This document shows, in pieces, positions 33,959 to 55,672 of a stretch of 64,000 nt of DNA. The notes under the pieces are model-generated. The model saw only the letters and a program-made list of their open reading frames with translations, was not told the origin of the DNA and ran no database searches. Both the position numbers and the translations under genes were made by a program. The stretch's first letter is position 1. Each line of letters opens with the position of its first letter. Source of the DNA: Vibrio ruber DSM 16370 (lineage in GTDB: Bacteria; Pseudomonadota; Gammaproteobacteria; Enterobacterales; Vibrionaceae); NCBI RefSeq assembly GCF_900163965.1, contig NZ_FULE01000031.1, positions 124,001 to 188,000 of the forward strand. Direction: 5' to 3'.

Positions 33959-34054
33959 GGGGGTGTTGACCTTTTGTGGTTAAATTTTGTTCAATCTGAA
34001 CGGGTATTGATCGCAGCGCGGGGCATGCCGCTTAGCTATCCTAAGCAAATCCCC
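33959..34054. mobile_element. Short MITE-like element copy abutting recG
   Basis: This 96-base segment starts GGGGGTGTTGACC and ends GCAAATCCCC, and TA stands on both outer sides (33957-33958 and 34055-34056). About 90 of its bases match, in the opposite orientation and with only four differences, the right arm of the larger element at 54739-55002. It looks like an internally deleted or single-arm derivative. It carries no coding capacity. Its last bases overlap the recG stop codon. Confidence 0.8.
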
Positions 34055-36132
34055 TAGGCTTTTACATAAACATCCCGTTCGCCAAGCCAGCGATCAATAA
34101 TGGCTGTCGCGTTGTCCGGGTAACGTTCATGAATGTGTCGTGCAATGCGTTGTACTTCCGGAATGAGTTGTTGATCCCGCACCAGATCCGCAATCTTAAA
34201 GTCAGCCAGTCCGGTCTGTTTGGTGCCGAGTAGTTCACCGGGGCCGCGGATTTCCAGATCTCGCTGAGCGATAATAAAACCATCGTTGCTCTCGCGCATA
34301 ACGCCCAAGCGTTTCTGTGCGGTTTTCGACAGTGGGGGATGATAAAGCAACACGCAGTGACTTGCGACAGAGCCTCGGCCGACACGCCCTCTCAGCTGGT
34401 GGAGCTGAGCCAACCCGAGTCGTTCCGGATTTTCGATGATCATCAGACTTGCGTTGGGGACGTCCACCCCAACTTCAATGACGGTGGTCGCGACAAGCAG
34501 ATGGATCTGATTCTCTTTAAAATCTTGCATGACTTGTTGTTTTTCTGCCGATTTCATCCGTCCGTGTACCAAACCGATCCGAACGCCGGGTAGCTGTTGC
34601 TGAAGCAACTGGCTGACTTCTTCTGCCGCCTGCGCTTCAAGAATTTCAGACTCGTCAATGAGGGTACAAACCCAATAAGCTTGTTTGCCTTCGGTCAGGC
34701 AAGCATGACGTACCCGTTCAATGACATCATCTCGCTTGGTATCCGGGATGGCTACCGTTTGAATCGGTGTGCGACCCGGCGGCAGTTCATCAATGATGGA
34801 TGTTTCCAGATCGGCATAAGCTGTCATTGCCAGTGTGCGTGGAATCGGGGTCGCAGTCATAATCAGCTGGTGAGGGAAACACCCATTTTTTACGCCTTTT
34901 TCCCGCAGTTCCAGACGTTGATGAACACCAAAGCGGTGCTGTTCATCAATAATGATCAACGCAAGATGATGAAATGCGACCTGTTCCTGAAACAATGCAT
35001 GAGTGCCGACGACCATGTGAATCGCACCGGATGCAATGTCAGCCAACGCTTGTTCTTTGGCTTTGCCTTTTAGTTTTCCGGCCAGCCAGCCGACGCGTAA
35101 TCCCATACTGGCAAACCAGTTGTTGAAGTTGAGTGTATGTTGTTCCGCCAACAGCTCCGTGGGTGCCATCAGGGCAACCTGATAGCCATGCTCAATGGCT
35201 CGTAGTGCGGCCATTGCTGCGACCAGCGTTTTCCCTGAGCCGACATCGCCCTGTACTAAACGCATCATCGGATGATGCTTCTCCAAATCGGATTCAATTT
35301 CACGAACCACACGTTCTTGTGCTCCCGTCGGCCGGAAAGGAAGTTGAGACAAAAGCTGCTGTTTGTATTGGTCGGCAGGCGGCAGCGCTAATGCCAAGTC
35401 TTGTTGACCACGATGCCGGACTGCCAGCATCGATAAGTTTTGTGCGAGCAGCTCTTCTATAATCAGGCGTAGCTGTGCTGGGTGGCGCCCCTGATCAAAT
35501 AACTCAAGCTCAATATCTGCCGCAGGTCGGTGAATGGTATGCAGTGCTTGTGATAAAGAGATTTGATGATGATACAGCCCTTCGGGTAACAGTTCTTGCA
35601 CCGCGGCTTTATCAAGGAGCGCCAGCGCCTGCTCGGTTAATTGACGGAGTGTCAGTTGCCTCAGTCCGTCTGTTGTCGGGTAAACCGGAGTCAGGCTGGC
35701 TTCTGCATCAACCGGTTGCTGTGGGGTATAAAACTTATATTCCGGGTGAATGATCTCAAGGCCGCTATTGCCACGTTTAATTTCCCCGTATGCATGAACA
35801 AATTTCCCCTCGGAGAAATTATTTTTCATTGCTGCTGTGAAATTAAAGAATCGGAGTGTCAGCGAACCGTGTCCGTCGCTAATTTTGACCGTCAGCATTT
35901 TTTTGCGTCCGAAAACCGTACTTGTGTGCATGACTTCGCCCTGAGTGGCACACCATAATCCCGGATGGAGTTGAGCAATGGGATAAACACGTGTTCTGTC
36001 TTCGTAACGGAGGGGAAGGTGAAACAGCAGATCTTGTACGGAATTCAAACCGATCCGGCTGAGTTTTTCAGCGACTTTGGCTCCGACGCCTGACAGTGAT
36101 GTTAACGGAATAGCTGAAAGCAATTGCGACAT
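34054..36132 (-). CDS. recG: ATP-dependent DNA helicase RecG
   Basis: This superfamily 2 helicase of about 692 residues rescues stalled replication forks and migrates branched DNA. It has the N-terminal wedge/OB domain (RYEDRTRVYPI, GSLTLRFFNF), Walker A GDVGSGKTLVA, the DEQH box (IIIDEQHRFGVHQR), motif III TATPIPRTLAMTAY, and the C-terminal helicase block QLRGRVGRG. I chose the ATG at 36132 because it matches the E. coli start and length (693); an ATG 21 bases upstream is possible. The TAG stop is formed where the MITE-like element meets the gene, yet the C-terminus (DVYVKA) keeps normal length. Confidence 0.96.
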   Translation of the reverse strand: MSQLLSAIPLTSLSGVGAKVAEKLSRIGLNSVQDLLFHLPLRYEDRTRVYPIAQLHPGLWCATQGEVMHTSTVFGRKKMLTVKISDGHGSLTLRFFNFTAAMKNNFSEGKFVHAYGEIKRGNSGLEIIHPEYKFYTPQQPVDAEASLTPVYPTTDGLRQLTLRQLTEQALALLDKAAVQELLPEGLYHHQISLSQALHTIHRPAADIELELFDQGRHPAQLRLIIEELLAQNLSMLAVRHRGQQDLALALPPADQYKQQLLSQLPFRPTGAQERVVREIESDLEKHHPMMRLVQGDVGSGKTLVAAMAALRAIEHGYQVALMAPTELLAEQHTLNFNNWFASMGLRVGWLAGKLKGKAKEQALADIASGAIHMVVGTHALFQEQVAFHHLALIIIDEQHRFGVHQRLELREKGVKNGCFPHQLIMTATPIPRTLAMTAYADLETSIIDELPPGRTPIQTVAIPDTKRDDVIERVRHACLTEGKQAYWVCTLIDESEILEAQAAEEVSQLLQQQLPGVRIGLVHGRMKSAEKQQVMQDFKENQIHLLVATTVIEVGVDVPNASLMIIENPERLGLAQLHQLRGRVGRGSVASHCVLLYHPPLSKTAQKRLGVMRESNDGFIIAQRDLEIRGPGELLGTKQTGLADFKIADLVRDQQLIPEVQRIARHIHERYPDNATAIIDRWLGERDVYVKA

Positions 36133-36283
36133 GAGCGGTTGTTTATAATGCATTGAGTTAGCAAATATTCAACCATCGAACTGTTTTTTTGTACAGGTTT
36201 TTTATGCTTTTATTTTAAGTTGAGTCGCATTGTGACCGGTTAATCAATCGGATTGATGATTGGTGACCCGGGCAAAAACAACA

Positions 36284-52561: not shown

Positions 52562-53986
52562 TTATGAGGCTGGTATATCCAGCGGCAGCATGATGGTAAC
52601 CCTCAGCCCGCCCATGGCGCTGCGGCTGGCTTGAATTGTGCCACGATGCTGACGGATGGCATTTTCGCTAATCGCTAGCCCCAGTCCTGTGCCACCGCTG
52701 TGCCGCTCTCGGGTGGTTGATACGCGATAGAAGGGGCGAAATATATTGGCGAGTTCATTCTCCGGCACGCCTTCACCGTTATCTTCGACACAAAGGGTTA
52801 ACTGCTGTGATGTATCACTGAAGGTGACCCGGATTTGATCTTTGCCGTAGTAGATCGCGTTACGGACGATATTTTCAACGGCACTCATCAGTTGTTGTGG
52901 GTTGCCTGATATCCGGCGCTCCGGAATGGCTGAATAGGTGAGGGTTTTTGCCATCTGTTCAGCTTCGAATACGGCATCGTCAAGCAAAGCTTCCCATAAA
53001 CTGGACAAGGGTTGTGTTTCTTGTTCGGAGTGGCTGTTGAGCTGCATTCTGGACAGTTCTAACAGCTCGCCAATCATCTGTTCCAAGCGTTGGGCTTCGA
53101 GATCAACTCGTTCCAGTTCGGGGCTGCTTCCCTGTTTGCGAGTGGCAAGTGCTGTCGCCATTCTTAAACGGGTGAGGGGGGAGCGAAGCTCATGAGAGAT
53201 ATCGGATAATAGTCGTTGTTGCCCTGAAATCATCTCATTGACGGCTTCGACCATATGGTTGAAGCTCTGTCCTGCCTGACGAAATTCGGTGGTTCCCTGC
53301 TCCAGAGTGCGATCAACCTGAAACTCACCCTGAGCAACACGTTGTGATGCCTGAGCCAGTTTTTGAGCGGGTTGACTTAATGCCCATGCCAGCCAGAGCA
53401 GCAATGGTGTACTGATCAACATGACGACCAGTAGCAGCGAAACCGGGTGATCCAGCAAACGAATAAACAATGGTGGGAGCTGATTGTCTGGGAAGGCAAC
53501 GTAGAGTAACAAAGATTGTTGAGCCAGCTGAACCGGCATCGGCCCCGCCATCAGAAAATGGCCGTAGAGGCGCTGCTGCGGTTGATCGACCGATTCAATG
53601 CCAGTGATGAAATTTTGGAGAATCCGGCGACTGACCATTTGATTACCGTTGACCAGCAGAATGTTGTTGTCCGTATCGGTCAAAAACAGATGAGGTTTGT
53701 CCTGATTTTCCCTGAGCGGGCGATAATGCATATTATGTCGGGGTTGCCGGATGAGCCGGTCGGATAGCGTTCTGAGAATCGTGGTGAGGTCTTGCTCTCC
53801 GGCAAATCTGGTTTCAAGGTTTTGTTTGATGGCAGCCAGACGTTGACGTTCCGAATTGGGTAAATCTTTGGCTTTTCTCGGGTCAAGATTCGGCAGTAAA
53901 AGCACCACGATTAAAATCAGTAACATCGTGAACCAGAAAATGGCAAAGATTCGGCCGTAGAGACTGTTTAACTTGGGCAGATGCAT
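52562..53986 (-). CDS. cpxA: Envelope stress sensor histidine kinase CpxA
   Basis: This 474-residue inner-membrane sensor has TM1 near residues 11-31, a periplasmic domain to about 180, and TM2 near 181-203. HAMP and a HisKA domain with DISHELRSPLTRLR (H265) follow. The HATPase domain has NAIYYG, DNGEGVP and GTGLGLAIS. It phosphorylates CpxR when periplasmic protein folding is disturbed. Its ATG overlaps the cpxR stop, so the two are coupled. The convergent neighbour is trmL. Confidence 0.97.
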   Translation of the reverse strand: MHLPKLNSLYGRIFAIFWFTMLLILIVVLLLPNLDPRKAKDLPNSERQRLAAIKQNLETRFAGEQDLTTILRTLSDRLIRQPRHNMHYRPLRENQDKPHLFLTDTDNNILLVNGNQMVSRRILQNFITGIESVDQPQQRLYGHFLMAGPMPVQLAQQSLLLYVAFPDNQLPPLFIRLLDHPVSLLLVVMLISTPLLLWLAWALSQPAQKLAQASQRVAQGEFQVDRTLEQGTTEFRQAGQSFNHMVEAVNEMISGQQRLLSDISHELRSPLTRLRMATALATRKQGSSPELERVDLEAQRLEQMIGELLELSRMQLNSHSEQETQPLSSLWEALLDDAVFEAEQMAKTLTYSAIPERRISGNPQQLMSAVENIVRNAIYYGKDQIRVTFSDTSQQLTLCVEDNGEGVPENELANIFRPFYRVSTTRERHSGGTGLGLAISENAIRQHRGTIQASRSAMGGLRVTIMLPLDIPAS

Positions 53987-54681
53987 CAGTCCTCCGCAAT
54001 CATCAGATAACCGCGCCCGCGCAGTGTTTTGATTCTTTCCCGTCCATCATGGCGGGGTGGGAGTTTTTTTCTCAGGTTGGAGACATGCATATCAATGGCA
54101 CGGTCAAAGGCCGCCAGCCGCTTGCCGAGCACATCCAGACTCAGGGTTTCTTTCGTGAGCGTTTCTCCCGGCTGCTGAACAAAGTGAGTCAGCAATGCAA
54201 ACTCTGTGGTCGTTAGATCAAGCAATTGATCGTGGCAGTATGCTTCTTGTTTTTTGGGGTATAGGCGTAAATCATCGCACTCGAGCACCTCACTCGATTT
54301 ATGCATCGGAGCTGGTTGTGTGCGACGGAGAATCGCGCGGATTCGGGCCAGAAGTTCCCGATCACTGAATGGTTTTGGCAGATAGTCATCAGCACCCAGT
54401 TCAAGACCGATGACCCGATCAATTTCTTCACCTTTGGCTGTCAGCATCAGCACCGGTAATTGCGCATATTGAGATGAGGTACGGATTCTTTTCAGCGTTT
54501 CCATGCCATTCAGTTTCGGCATCATTACATCCAATAAGACAATGTCTGTCCGTTCATCAAGCATCCCGAGACCGGCTTCACCATCGTGAGCCTCAGTAAC
54601 ACTGAATCCTTCAAGGGTGAGCACTTCTTTGAGCAGTGTCGTTAACTCGGTATCGTCATCAATGATTAGGATATGGGACAT
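53986..54681 (-). CDS. cpxR: Envelope stress response regulator CpxR
   Basis: This 231-residue OmpR-type regulator has the acidic pocket DDD (8-10), phosphoacceptor D51 (LLDVMMPKLNG), and a C-terminal winged helix with DVLGKRLAAFDRAIDMHVSNLRKKL. It controls periplasmic folding and degradation genes, including its own operon and cpxP. Between its start and cpxP lie 57 native bases, the 264-bp MITE-like element, and then the CpxR box. Its promoter arrangement is therefore altered compared with the compact region of other genomes. Confidence 0.97.
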   Translation of the reverse strand: MSHILIIDDDTELTTLLKEVLTLEGFSVTEAHDGEAGLGMLDERTDIVLLDVMMPKLNGMETLKRIRTSSQYAQLPVLMLTAKGEEIDRVIGLELGADDYLPKPFSDRELLARIRAILRRTQPAPMHKSSEVLECDDLRLYPKKQEAYCHDQLLDLTTTEFALLTHFVQQPGETLTKETLSLDVLGKRLAAFDRAIDMHVSNLRKKLPPRHDGRERIKTLRGRGYLMIAED

Positions 54682-54738
54682 CAGTGGTTCTCCGCGCGTC
54701 CTGTGAACGTTTTATTTTTGTCAGCCAAGGGCTTCCTA

Positions 54739-55002
54739 GGGGCTGTTGACCTTTCGTGATGGTTTTTGCAGCAATTTGTCGTGCATTTAGTCAAGGCAGG
54801 TCATGTGAAGTGTAGCGATCTACATGAATCATGACCTAACGCTGGATAAATGAGCGACAAATGCTGCCCAGAGGGTTCATCTGAACGTGTCTTGCTCTTT
54901 GTTGCGGGTCATTTGCTTAGGATAGCTAAGCGGCATGCCCCGCGCCGCGATCAATACCCGTTCAGATTGAACAAAATTCAACCACGAAAGGTCAACAACC
55001 CC
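54739..55002. mobile_element. 264-bp MITE-like element in the cpxR-cpxP region
   Basis: The element starts GGGGCTGTTGACCTTTCGTG and ends with the near-perfect inverse, CACGAAAGGTCAACAACCCC. TA flanks both ends (54737-54738 and 55003-55004). The interior holds a long imperfect hairpin with arms GCAGCAATTTGTCG (54768-54781) and CGACAAATGCTGC (54855-54867). It encodes no protein. The TA flanks and the terminal sequence suggest mobilisation by an IS5-like transposase in trans, but that is inference. A shortened copy lies next to recG. Confidence 0.85.
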
Positions 55003-55050
55003 TAATAGTTTACCTTTAAAATCCACGGATAAAGATCGTTTGGTGCCTCA

Positions 55051-55065
55051 TTTACACTCTTTTAC
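55051..55065 (-). promoter_or_regulatory. CpxR box upstream of cpxP
   Basis: TTTAC-ACTCT-TTTAC is the exact reverse complement of the CpxR consensus GTAAA-N5-GTAAA. It lies 16 bases before a TTGACC -35 element (55082-55087), a normal activator position for cpxP. Confidence 0.85.
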
Positions 55066-55081
55066 CGACGCTATACACCAG

Positions 55082-55109
55082 TTGACCTTAGAGAATGTAA
55101 GCTTAATTT
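55082..55109 (+). promoter_or_regulatory. Candidate cpxP promoter
   Basis: TTGACC (55082-55087) is followed after 16 bases by TAATTT (55104-55109). The weak -10 fits an activator-dependent promoter with the CpxR box just upstream. Confidence 0.55.
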
Positions 55110-55168
55110 ACCGACATACGAAAGGCTGATGATAATTCAGTCTGTCCACCAAGCAAGAGGTAACAGAG

Positions 55169-55672
55169 ATGAACACTTTAACAAAAGTAATATTGGCAGC
55201 CGCTGTTCTCCCGTTCACGCTCGGCAGTATGAATGTTTTTGCCGGCTATAACCATCATGGCGGTGGTCATTGGGGGAATCAACGTTCCGAATGCCAGGGT
55301 TATGATCAGCGTGGGATGTTGCGAGGATTTAACCTTACAGCAGAACAGCAAAATCAACTGACAGCACTCCGACAACAACACCGGGAGCAAAGACAGGCTC
55401 AGATGCAAGCTTTTCATCAAGAGATGGTGCCGATTGTTACGGCAAAAAATTTTGATGAGCAAGCCGCTCAGAAACTGGCCGGCAAAATGGAAAATGCACG
55501 CGTTGACAGACGGGTAGAGATGATGCGTCAACGGCATGACATGCTCAGTATCTTGACGCCAGAGCAACAACAACAGTGGCAAAAGATGTTTCAGGAAAGA
55601 AGACCGTACAACAATATGACCGGCCCCGGTCAAGGTGGTAATGGCCCTAGCTTCATGATGAACCAATGGTAG
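55169..55672 (+). CDS. cpxP: Periplasmic CpxP/Spy-family protein
   Basis: This 167-residue periplasmic protein has a signal peptide (to about residue 25, NVFA/GYNHHGGGHW). Two LTxxQ motifs define the family: LTAEQQ near residue 56 and LTPEQQ near residue 130. A Gln/Arg-rich helical body lies between them. CpxP damps CpxA signalling and helps remove misfolded proteins. A His/Gly-rich N-terminus could bind metal. It is divergent from cpxRA, as in enterobacteria, and is preceded by a perfect CpxR box. Confidence 0.92.
   Translation: MNTLTKVILAAAVLPFTLGSMNVFAGYNHHGGGHWGNQRSECQGYDQRGMLRGFNLTAEQQNQLTALRQQHREQRQAQMQAFHQEMVPIVTAKNFDEQAAQKLAGKMENARVDRRVEMMRQRHDMLSILTPEQQQQWQKMFQERRPYNNMTGPGQGGNGPSFMMNQW

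Follow-up and report, generated by a model that had tools for sequence, protein, structure and literature searches.

A structured MITE in the cpxR/cpxP intergenic region of Vibrio ruber, most likely lying in the cpxR leader past a conserved -10-like hexamer

On the usual view a MITE needs nothing but its ends, and among the described repeats ERIC is about half the length of the 264-bp element that is the subject here. ERIC occurs in Enterobacteriaceae and Vibrionaceae and is a MITE-like repeat found across genera, and SonMITE_1 of Shewanella oneidensis is named as a MITE (both according to the review PMC10969869). We liken ERIC to our element by description, not by sequence, and SonMITE_1 by name and host only, as a MITE in a bacterium that also carries ISSod6. 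In its predicted position, just past a promoter and ahead of a regulated operon, the element would resemble the Correia elements of Neisseria, which sit in other hosts, and above all the copy that follows the mtrCDE promoter (PMC10969869). According to that review, transcription went up when the IHF site of this Correia copy was deleted, and RNase III cleaves its transcript at the two ends of the element (PMC10969869).

In sequence, the element is comparable with IS5-family IS of the ISSod6 type. Elsewhere in the genus, one genome contains an 883-bp IS with similar ends, TA flanks and a 253-aa IS5-family transposase (NF033580), and ISSod6 (Shewanella oneidensis), 74% identical to this IS, was the nearest IS-named match among the matches listed. 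In three copies of this type (the 883-bp IS, ISSod6 and an IS of V. alginolyticus), TA flanks both ends, the tips GGGTCTG or GGGCGTG are followed by TTGATCTTT, the left ends read TTGATCTTTCG and the right ends TTGATCTTTGC. The tips found in the MITE family are GGGTCTG, GGGCGTG, GGGCCTG, GGGGCTG and others, with those of the IS copies among them. However, these IS are about 880 bp long and contain a transposase gene, while the MITE contains none; and both MITE ends are of the IS left type (TTTCG), whereas the IS right ends have TTTGC, so that the MITE is no plain internal deletion of these IS copies.

We analysed a 64-kb window (the whole stretch of Vibrio ruber DNA, 64,000 nucleotides), in which the element lies between cpxR and a cpxP-family gene. 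In the protein-family search, CpxA scored above the NCBI cut-off, and CpxR and CpxP-family were the best matches for their proteins but with scores below the NCBI cut-offs; the Pfam domains of CpxR, CpxA and CpxP are as expected. Vibrio sp. MEBiC08052 gave the one named match to the CpxP of the window, in keeping with the genus Vibrio. No listed ORF (at least 60 aa) lies within 54682-55168. The features of the region, in window coordinates, are as follows.

52562-53986, minus strand: cpxA, open frame of 474 aa (ORF list, protein-family and Pfam search)
53986-54681, minus strand: cpxR, open frame of 231 aa (ORF list, protein-family and Pfam search)
54682-54738, minus strand: 57 native leader bases with the cpxR ribosome-binding region (aligns with the leader of relatives; predicted accessibility little altered)
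54737-54738, no strand: left TA, target duplication (sequence; present in 11 of 11 full copies)
54739-55002, no strand: 264-bp MITE with basal stem, two long arms and one small hairpin (11 genome copies of 263-264 bp at 98-100%; empty site in 34 of 34 other loci)
54739-54758, plus strand: left terminal inverted repeat GGGGCTGTTGACCTTTCGTG (resembles left ends of ISSod6-type IS)
54768-54867, no strand: arm 1 of the fold (consensus fold and pair counts, 35 sequences)
54875-54972, no strand: arm 2 of the fold (consensus fold and pair counts, 35 sequences)
54983-55002, minus strand: right terminal inverted repeat GGGGTTGTTGACCTTTCGTG (inverted-repeat comparison)
54999-55001, minus strand: predicted cpxR transcription start, 6-8 nt past the proposed -10 and within the terminal G run of the element
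55003-55004, no strand: right TA, target duplication (sequence; present in 11 of 11 full copies)
55007-55012, minus strand: proposed cpxR -10 hexamer TAAACT, 38 nt past the CpxR box (TANNNT at one of two spacings in 35 of 35 loci)
55051-55065, minus strand: perfect CpxR box GTAAAAGAGTGTAAA (box of the same form in 34 of 34 other loci)
55169-55672, plus strand: cpxP-family gene, open frame of 167 aa (ORF list, protein-family and Pfam search)

The spacing between cpxR and cpxP is 487 bp in the window, compared with 218-220 bp in five close relatives and 174-202 bp in 29 more distant loci of the genus (for 8 of these, whose alignments started within the protein, the cpxP start is an extrapolation), and we therefore take the 264-bp element as an insertion. 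All 34 other genus loci examined lack an insertion at the site (close relatives, 5 of 5; further loci, 29 of 29). The close relatives are those 5 of 226 other genus genomes in which cpxP together with its upstream DNA finds a match at E <= 1e-10, and the further loci are best matches, those returned from 60 other genomes drawn. The outer bases of the element are GGGG...CCCC, and the two 20-bp ends form inverted repeats that differ at one position. An earlier note on this DNA had described a 264-bp structured element between cpxR and the CpxR box with 57 native bases left on the cpxR side, and both statements agree with the boundaries found here: TA on each side of 54739-55002, a stable fold, the empty site in the other loci, and 57 bases in 54682-54738 when the TA is counted in. 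An assembly chimera was ruled out, as both flanks of the element align to one continuous intergenic region of the relatives.

In the V. ruber genome, the element has matches in 41 places, 11 of which are full copies at 98-100% identity. All copies of 263-264 bp (11 of 11) are flanked by YTA on the left and TAR on the right, and a twelfth copy (259 bp, 91%) is without the left TA. The five close relatives contain 53, 49, 4, 2 and 0 matching places. The copy number, the TA flanks and the IS-like ends support the identification of the cpxR-site element as a MITE, which the earlier note had placed in the shared cpxR/cpxP control region. Around the copies, 16 gene pairs are tandem, 8 divergent and 5 convergent (29 classed of 38 loci), but the crude ORF caller behind these counts mis-called the cpx site, and we base no conclusion on them.

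The CpxR box is the sole exact GTAAA-N5-GTAAA in the 64-kb window, which bears out the perfect box reported at 55051-55065. A match of this form also arises in 17 of 100 shuffled windows, and the weight of the box comes from its presence in 34 of 34 relatives. On the cpxR side of the box, every one of the 35 loci has a TANNNT hexamer near the expected distance: counted from the end of the box, 24 of them (the window among these) have it 38-39 nt away and the other 11 have it 27-28 nt away. Base shuffling, repeated 2000 times, gave such a hexamer in 3.2 of 35 loci on average and in 10 at most; both spacings were picked after inspection of the data, and the 35 loci are related and not independent events. 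For example, TAATTT lies 27 nt from the CpxR box in the E. coli K-12 cpxR region. In the window, the hexamer is TAAACT, and its 38-nt spacing from the box equals that in close relatives, as seen by alignment to the window's empty site. The element begins only beyond this hexamer as seen from the box, and four bases, TA included, separate the two. We propose that this conserved hexamer is the cpxR -10, although TAAACT is weak and the promoter scan saw no good -35 ahead of it; limited literature listings gave no transcription start for a Vibrio cpxR. The two registers are about one helical turn apart, and the 27-28 nt spacing is that of L059, L061-L064 and L066-L071 as well as E. coli (L199).

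Since the hexamer lies between box and element at its native spacing, box and promoter would be unseparated, and judging from the sequence the element most likely fell in the cpxR leader rather than between box and promoter. We consider it likely that it entered the leader past the -10, that CpxR-dependent initiation was kept, and that any effect on cpxR is post-initiation; autoregulated initiation of cpxRA is probably retained. The earlier note had concluded instead that the box is cut off from the cpxR promoter, so that autoregulation of cpxRA must span about 370 bp, use a promoter in the element, or be lost. Its distance is correct, as 369 bases now lie between the box and the start codon, and several other MITEs are reported with sigma-70-like promoter sequences in the review PMC10969869. 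But its choice of three outcomes is not supported, as the conserved -10-like hexamer is kept box-side at native spacing. Moreover, no minus-strand sigma-70-like promoter was found in 54600-55250 at the threshold of a scan that misses the proposed native promoter as well, and a separation of box and promoter appears improbable to us. On the same scan, equally blind to the proposed native promoter, a promoter inside the element toward cpxR was set aside for want of a minus-strand hit. No minus-strand terminator was found in 54600-55250 either, and one plus-strand terminator-like site (54891-54908) lies inside the element facing away from cpxR, where 0.5 are expected by chance.

In the mechanism that we propose, a non-autonomous element, probably moved by an ISSod6-type IS5-family transposase, would have entered the TA a few bases past the cpxR -10. 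Box and -10 would hold their native geometry and give CpxR-dependent initiation of cpxRA, and the cpxR message would start in the element's terminal G run. With read-through, the leader would grow from about 55 to about 320 nt, nearly all of the gain being a 264-nt hairpin before the native ribosome-binding region, and the possible outcomes for cpxR expression would be RNase III cleavage, changed stability or attenuation. In the predicted leader, 190 element bases are paired, all within the element and none to the outside, and the 20 nt ahead of the cpxR start codon are unpaired with a mean probability of 0.36 when the element is present and 0.32 when it is absent. Translation initiation is thus not obviously blocked, which makes those three the plausible effects. 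The insertion also swaps the bases around the start point and could itself alter promoter strength. Control of cpxP would seemingly be unaffected; it had been said to look intact, and the cpxP side indeed aligns to the relatives without a large break.

Besides such an effect, there is a real possibility, though we would not bet on it, that this leader insertion is without consequence, a passenger that the cell tolerates. The frames of cpxR, cpxA and cpxP are open with the expected domains, the ribosome-binding region is predicted to be little affected, and two related genomes each tolerate some 50 matching places; on the other side stands the Correia element past the mtrCDE promoter, which has effects (PMC10969869) and is an analogy only. 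The cpxR insertion is a natural test of a large leader hairpin in an autoregulated envelope-stress operon, with the relatives lacking the insertion as controls. A Correia-like IHF site in the cpxR-site element was ruled out, as the exact IHF consensus WATCAANNNNTTR has no match there.

The MITE family is order-wide. In the order-level search, 53 of 197 genomes (this one counted) from 17 of 79 genera and nine families have matches, some of them partial copies only, and a class-wide draw gave matches in 2 of 143 genomes, this one and another of the same order. Plasmid records of Vibrio, Pseudoalteromonas and Catenovulum also match (12 in one search and 15 in another); their unannotated surroundings were not counted as intergenic, two such records having 2 annotated features each. 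A phage origin was ruled out, with no match among phage records. We assembled 77 sequences, of which 72 have lengths of 261-265 bp; the pairwise identity goes down to 53%, and each of the nine families has a 261-265-bp member; this set is biased to constant length, since near end-to-end matches of the query were fetched and two 304-bp members (L082, L089) were omitted. Two members from different genomes (L154, L155) have a common 13-bp internal insertion, the mark of a subfamily.

The fold of 54737-55004 has a predicted energy of -127.5 kcal/mol, compared with -75.2 +/- 4.8 for shuffled sequences (z -11; 0 of 200 as low). For 35 sequences (39 minus the longer L154, L155, L082 and L089), we derived an 80-pair consensus structure that consists of a basal stem, a pair of long arms and a small hairpin. 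In it, 97.4% of cells are paired, and in 201 cells both partners of the pair have changed. In the controls, shuffles gave 89.9% paired and 54 double-changed cells, and slid structures at most 48% and 31, where the 80-pair structure is favoured over its slid versions by being drawn from the same alignment. On a tree of the 77 sequences, 204 changes are compensated doubles, and the single changes from Watson-Crick pairs lead to G-U in 104 cases, to A-C in 93 and to other mismatches in 116; in all of these fold statistics the cells are not independent, and tree and counts come from one alignment of possibly recombining repeats.

The stable fold and its covariation would also fit a structured RNA, a leader regulator or sRNA that is selected for RNA function, and the raw cells of the 77 members seem to point the same way, with 255 G-U against 130 A-C. 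However, this raw excess stems from two pairs that most members have as T-G (68 and 49 cells of 77); once both are left out, the numbers are 138 and 130. Selection on a one-strand RNA should favour G-U, which the single changes on the tree (104 vs 93; p 0.48) do not, and so the signal looks like that of DNA, or of both strands. The element is moreover multicopy, with TA flanks and IS-like ends, and reaches no Rfam family at gathering score, all of which makes an RNA function as the selected trait very improbable in our opinion. The Rfam search of the window returned 0 matches at the gathering threshold and, with E up to 10, only MIR4372 at 23.5 bits against a threshold of 100; a known RNA family was ruled out on this basis.

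Compensatory changes could also come from copying between the halves of a hairpin, by template switching or gene conversion, with no selection on the fold. The near strand symmetry of the single changes is what a DNA process of this kind would give. But doubles on the same branch are unclustered (14 adjacent vs 12 expected), and the young copies behave otherwise: we compared 33 of them from the own genome and relatives (the window plus 40 loci, less 8 of unsuitable length), and at their Watson-Crick pairs each of the 57 changed cells differs on one side only (32 A-C, 16 G-U, 9 mismatch), with 0 compensated doubles. This argues for no constant arm-to-arm correction, and for a filter by which the well-paired lineages keep spreading; we hold hairpin copying to be unlikely. 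On the internal branches of the tree, 108 doubles stand against 71 singles leaving Watson-Crick (15 G-U, 27 A-C, 29 mismatch), and on the terminal branches 96 doubles against 242 singles. The advantage of paired positions is modest, however: among the young copies they change somewhat less per site than unpaired ones (0.0117 vs 0.0163), and as columns they are somewhat better conserved (0.85 vs 0.78).

Our tentative reading, which we put forward as a possibility short of an expectation, is that the whole branched fold, beyond the ends, would be selected for propagation, largely at the DNA level, while fresh copies decay, and that the insertion at cpxR would add post-initiation control. As part of this reading, the MITE family would have held its base pairing and a length of about 264 bp in nine families of a single order, at identities down to 53%. 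Length and internal pairing kept across an order suggest a role of the internal fold in mobility or in tolerance by the host. Open-access literature listings, limited and weak as a source, gave no description of this MITE family, and we regard the element as an order-wide member of structured MITEs whose description was not found in those listings or in Rfam; SonMITE_1 could be the same. Stem-loop families of V. cholerae are tabulated in PMC2267715, and the MITE family may overlap with them.

For the partner transposase, no intact gene was found in the own genome (103 contigs, in which one could be missed), and as a candidate in the own genome or the five relatives it was set aside, with partial matches only, in 3 of 6 genomes. 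In the own genome, positions 203-380 of L040 (C9:11901-12078) make a stretch of 178 bp with MITE-like ends and a piece of an IS5-type transposase (35 residues, 74% identical), and from these letters it is probably a fossil of the partner IS.

Shortened copies are common in the own genome and its relatives. Among 14 inspected, five from the own genome (L033, L034, L037, L038 and L039) are 84-97 bp long, with the terminal repeat at the start and CCC next to TA at the end, and the left TA is present in 4 of 5; such copies are perhaps a second, smaller mobile form. In the window itself, a 96-bp single-arm copy of the element (33959-34054) has TA on both sides and ends a 699-aa frame (34054-36153, minus strand), presumably recG by its appearance, and the stop codon TAG of this frame consists of the flanking TA and the element's terminal G.
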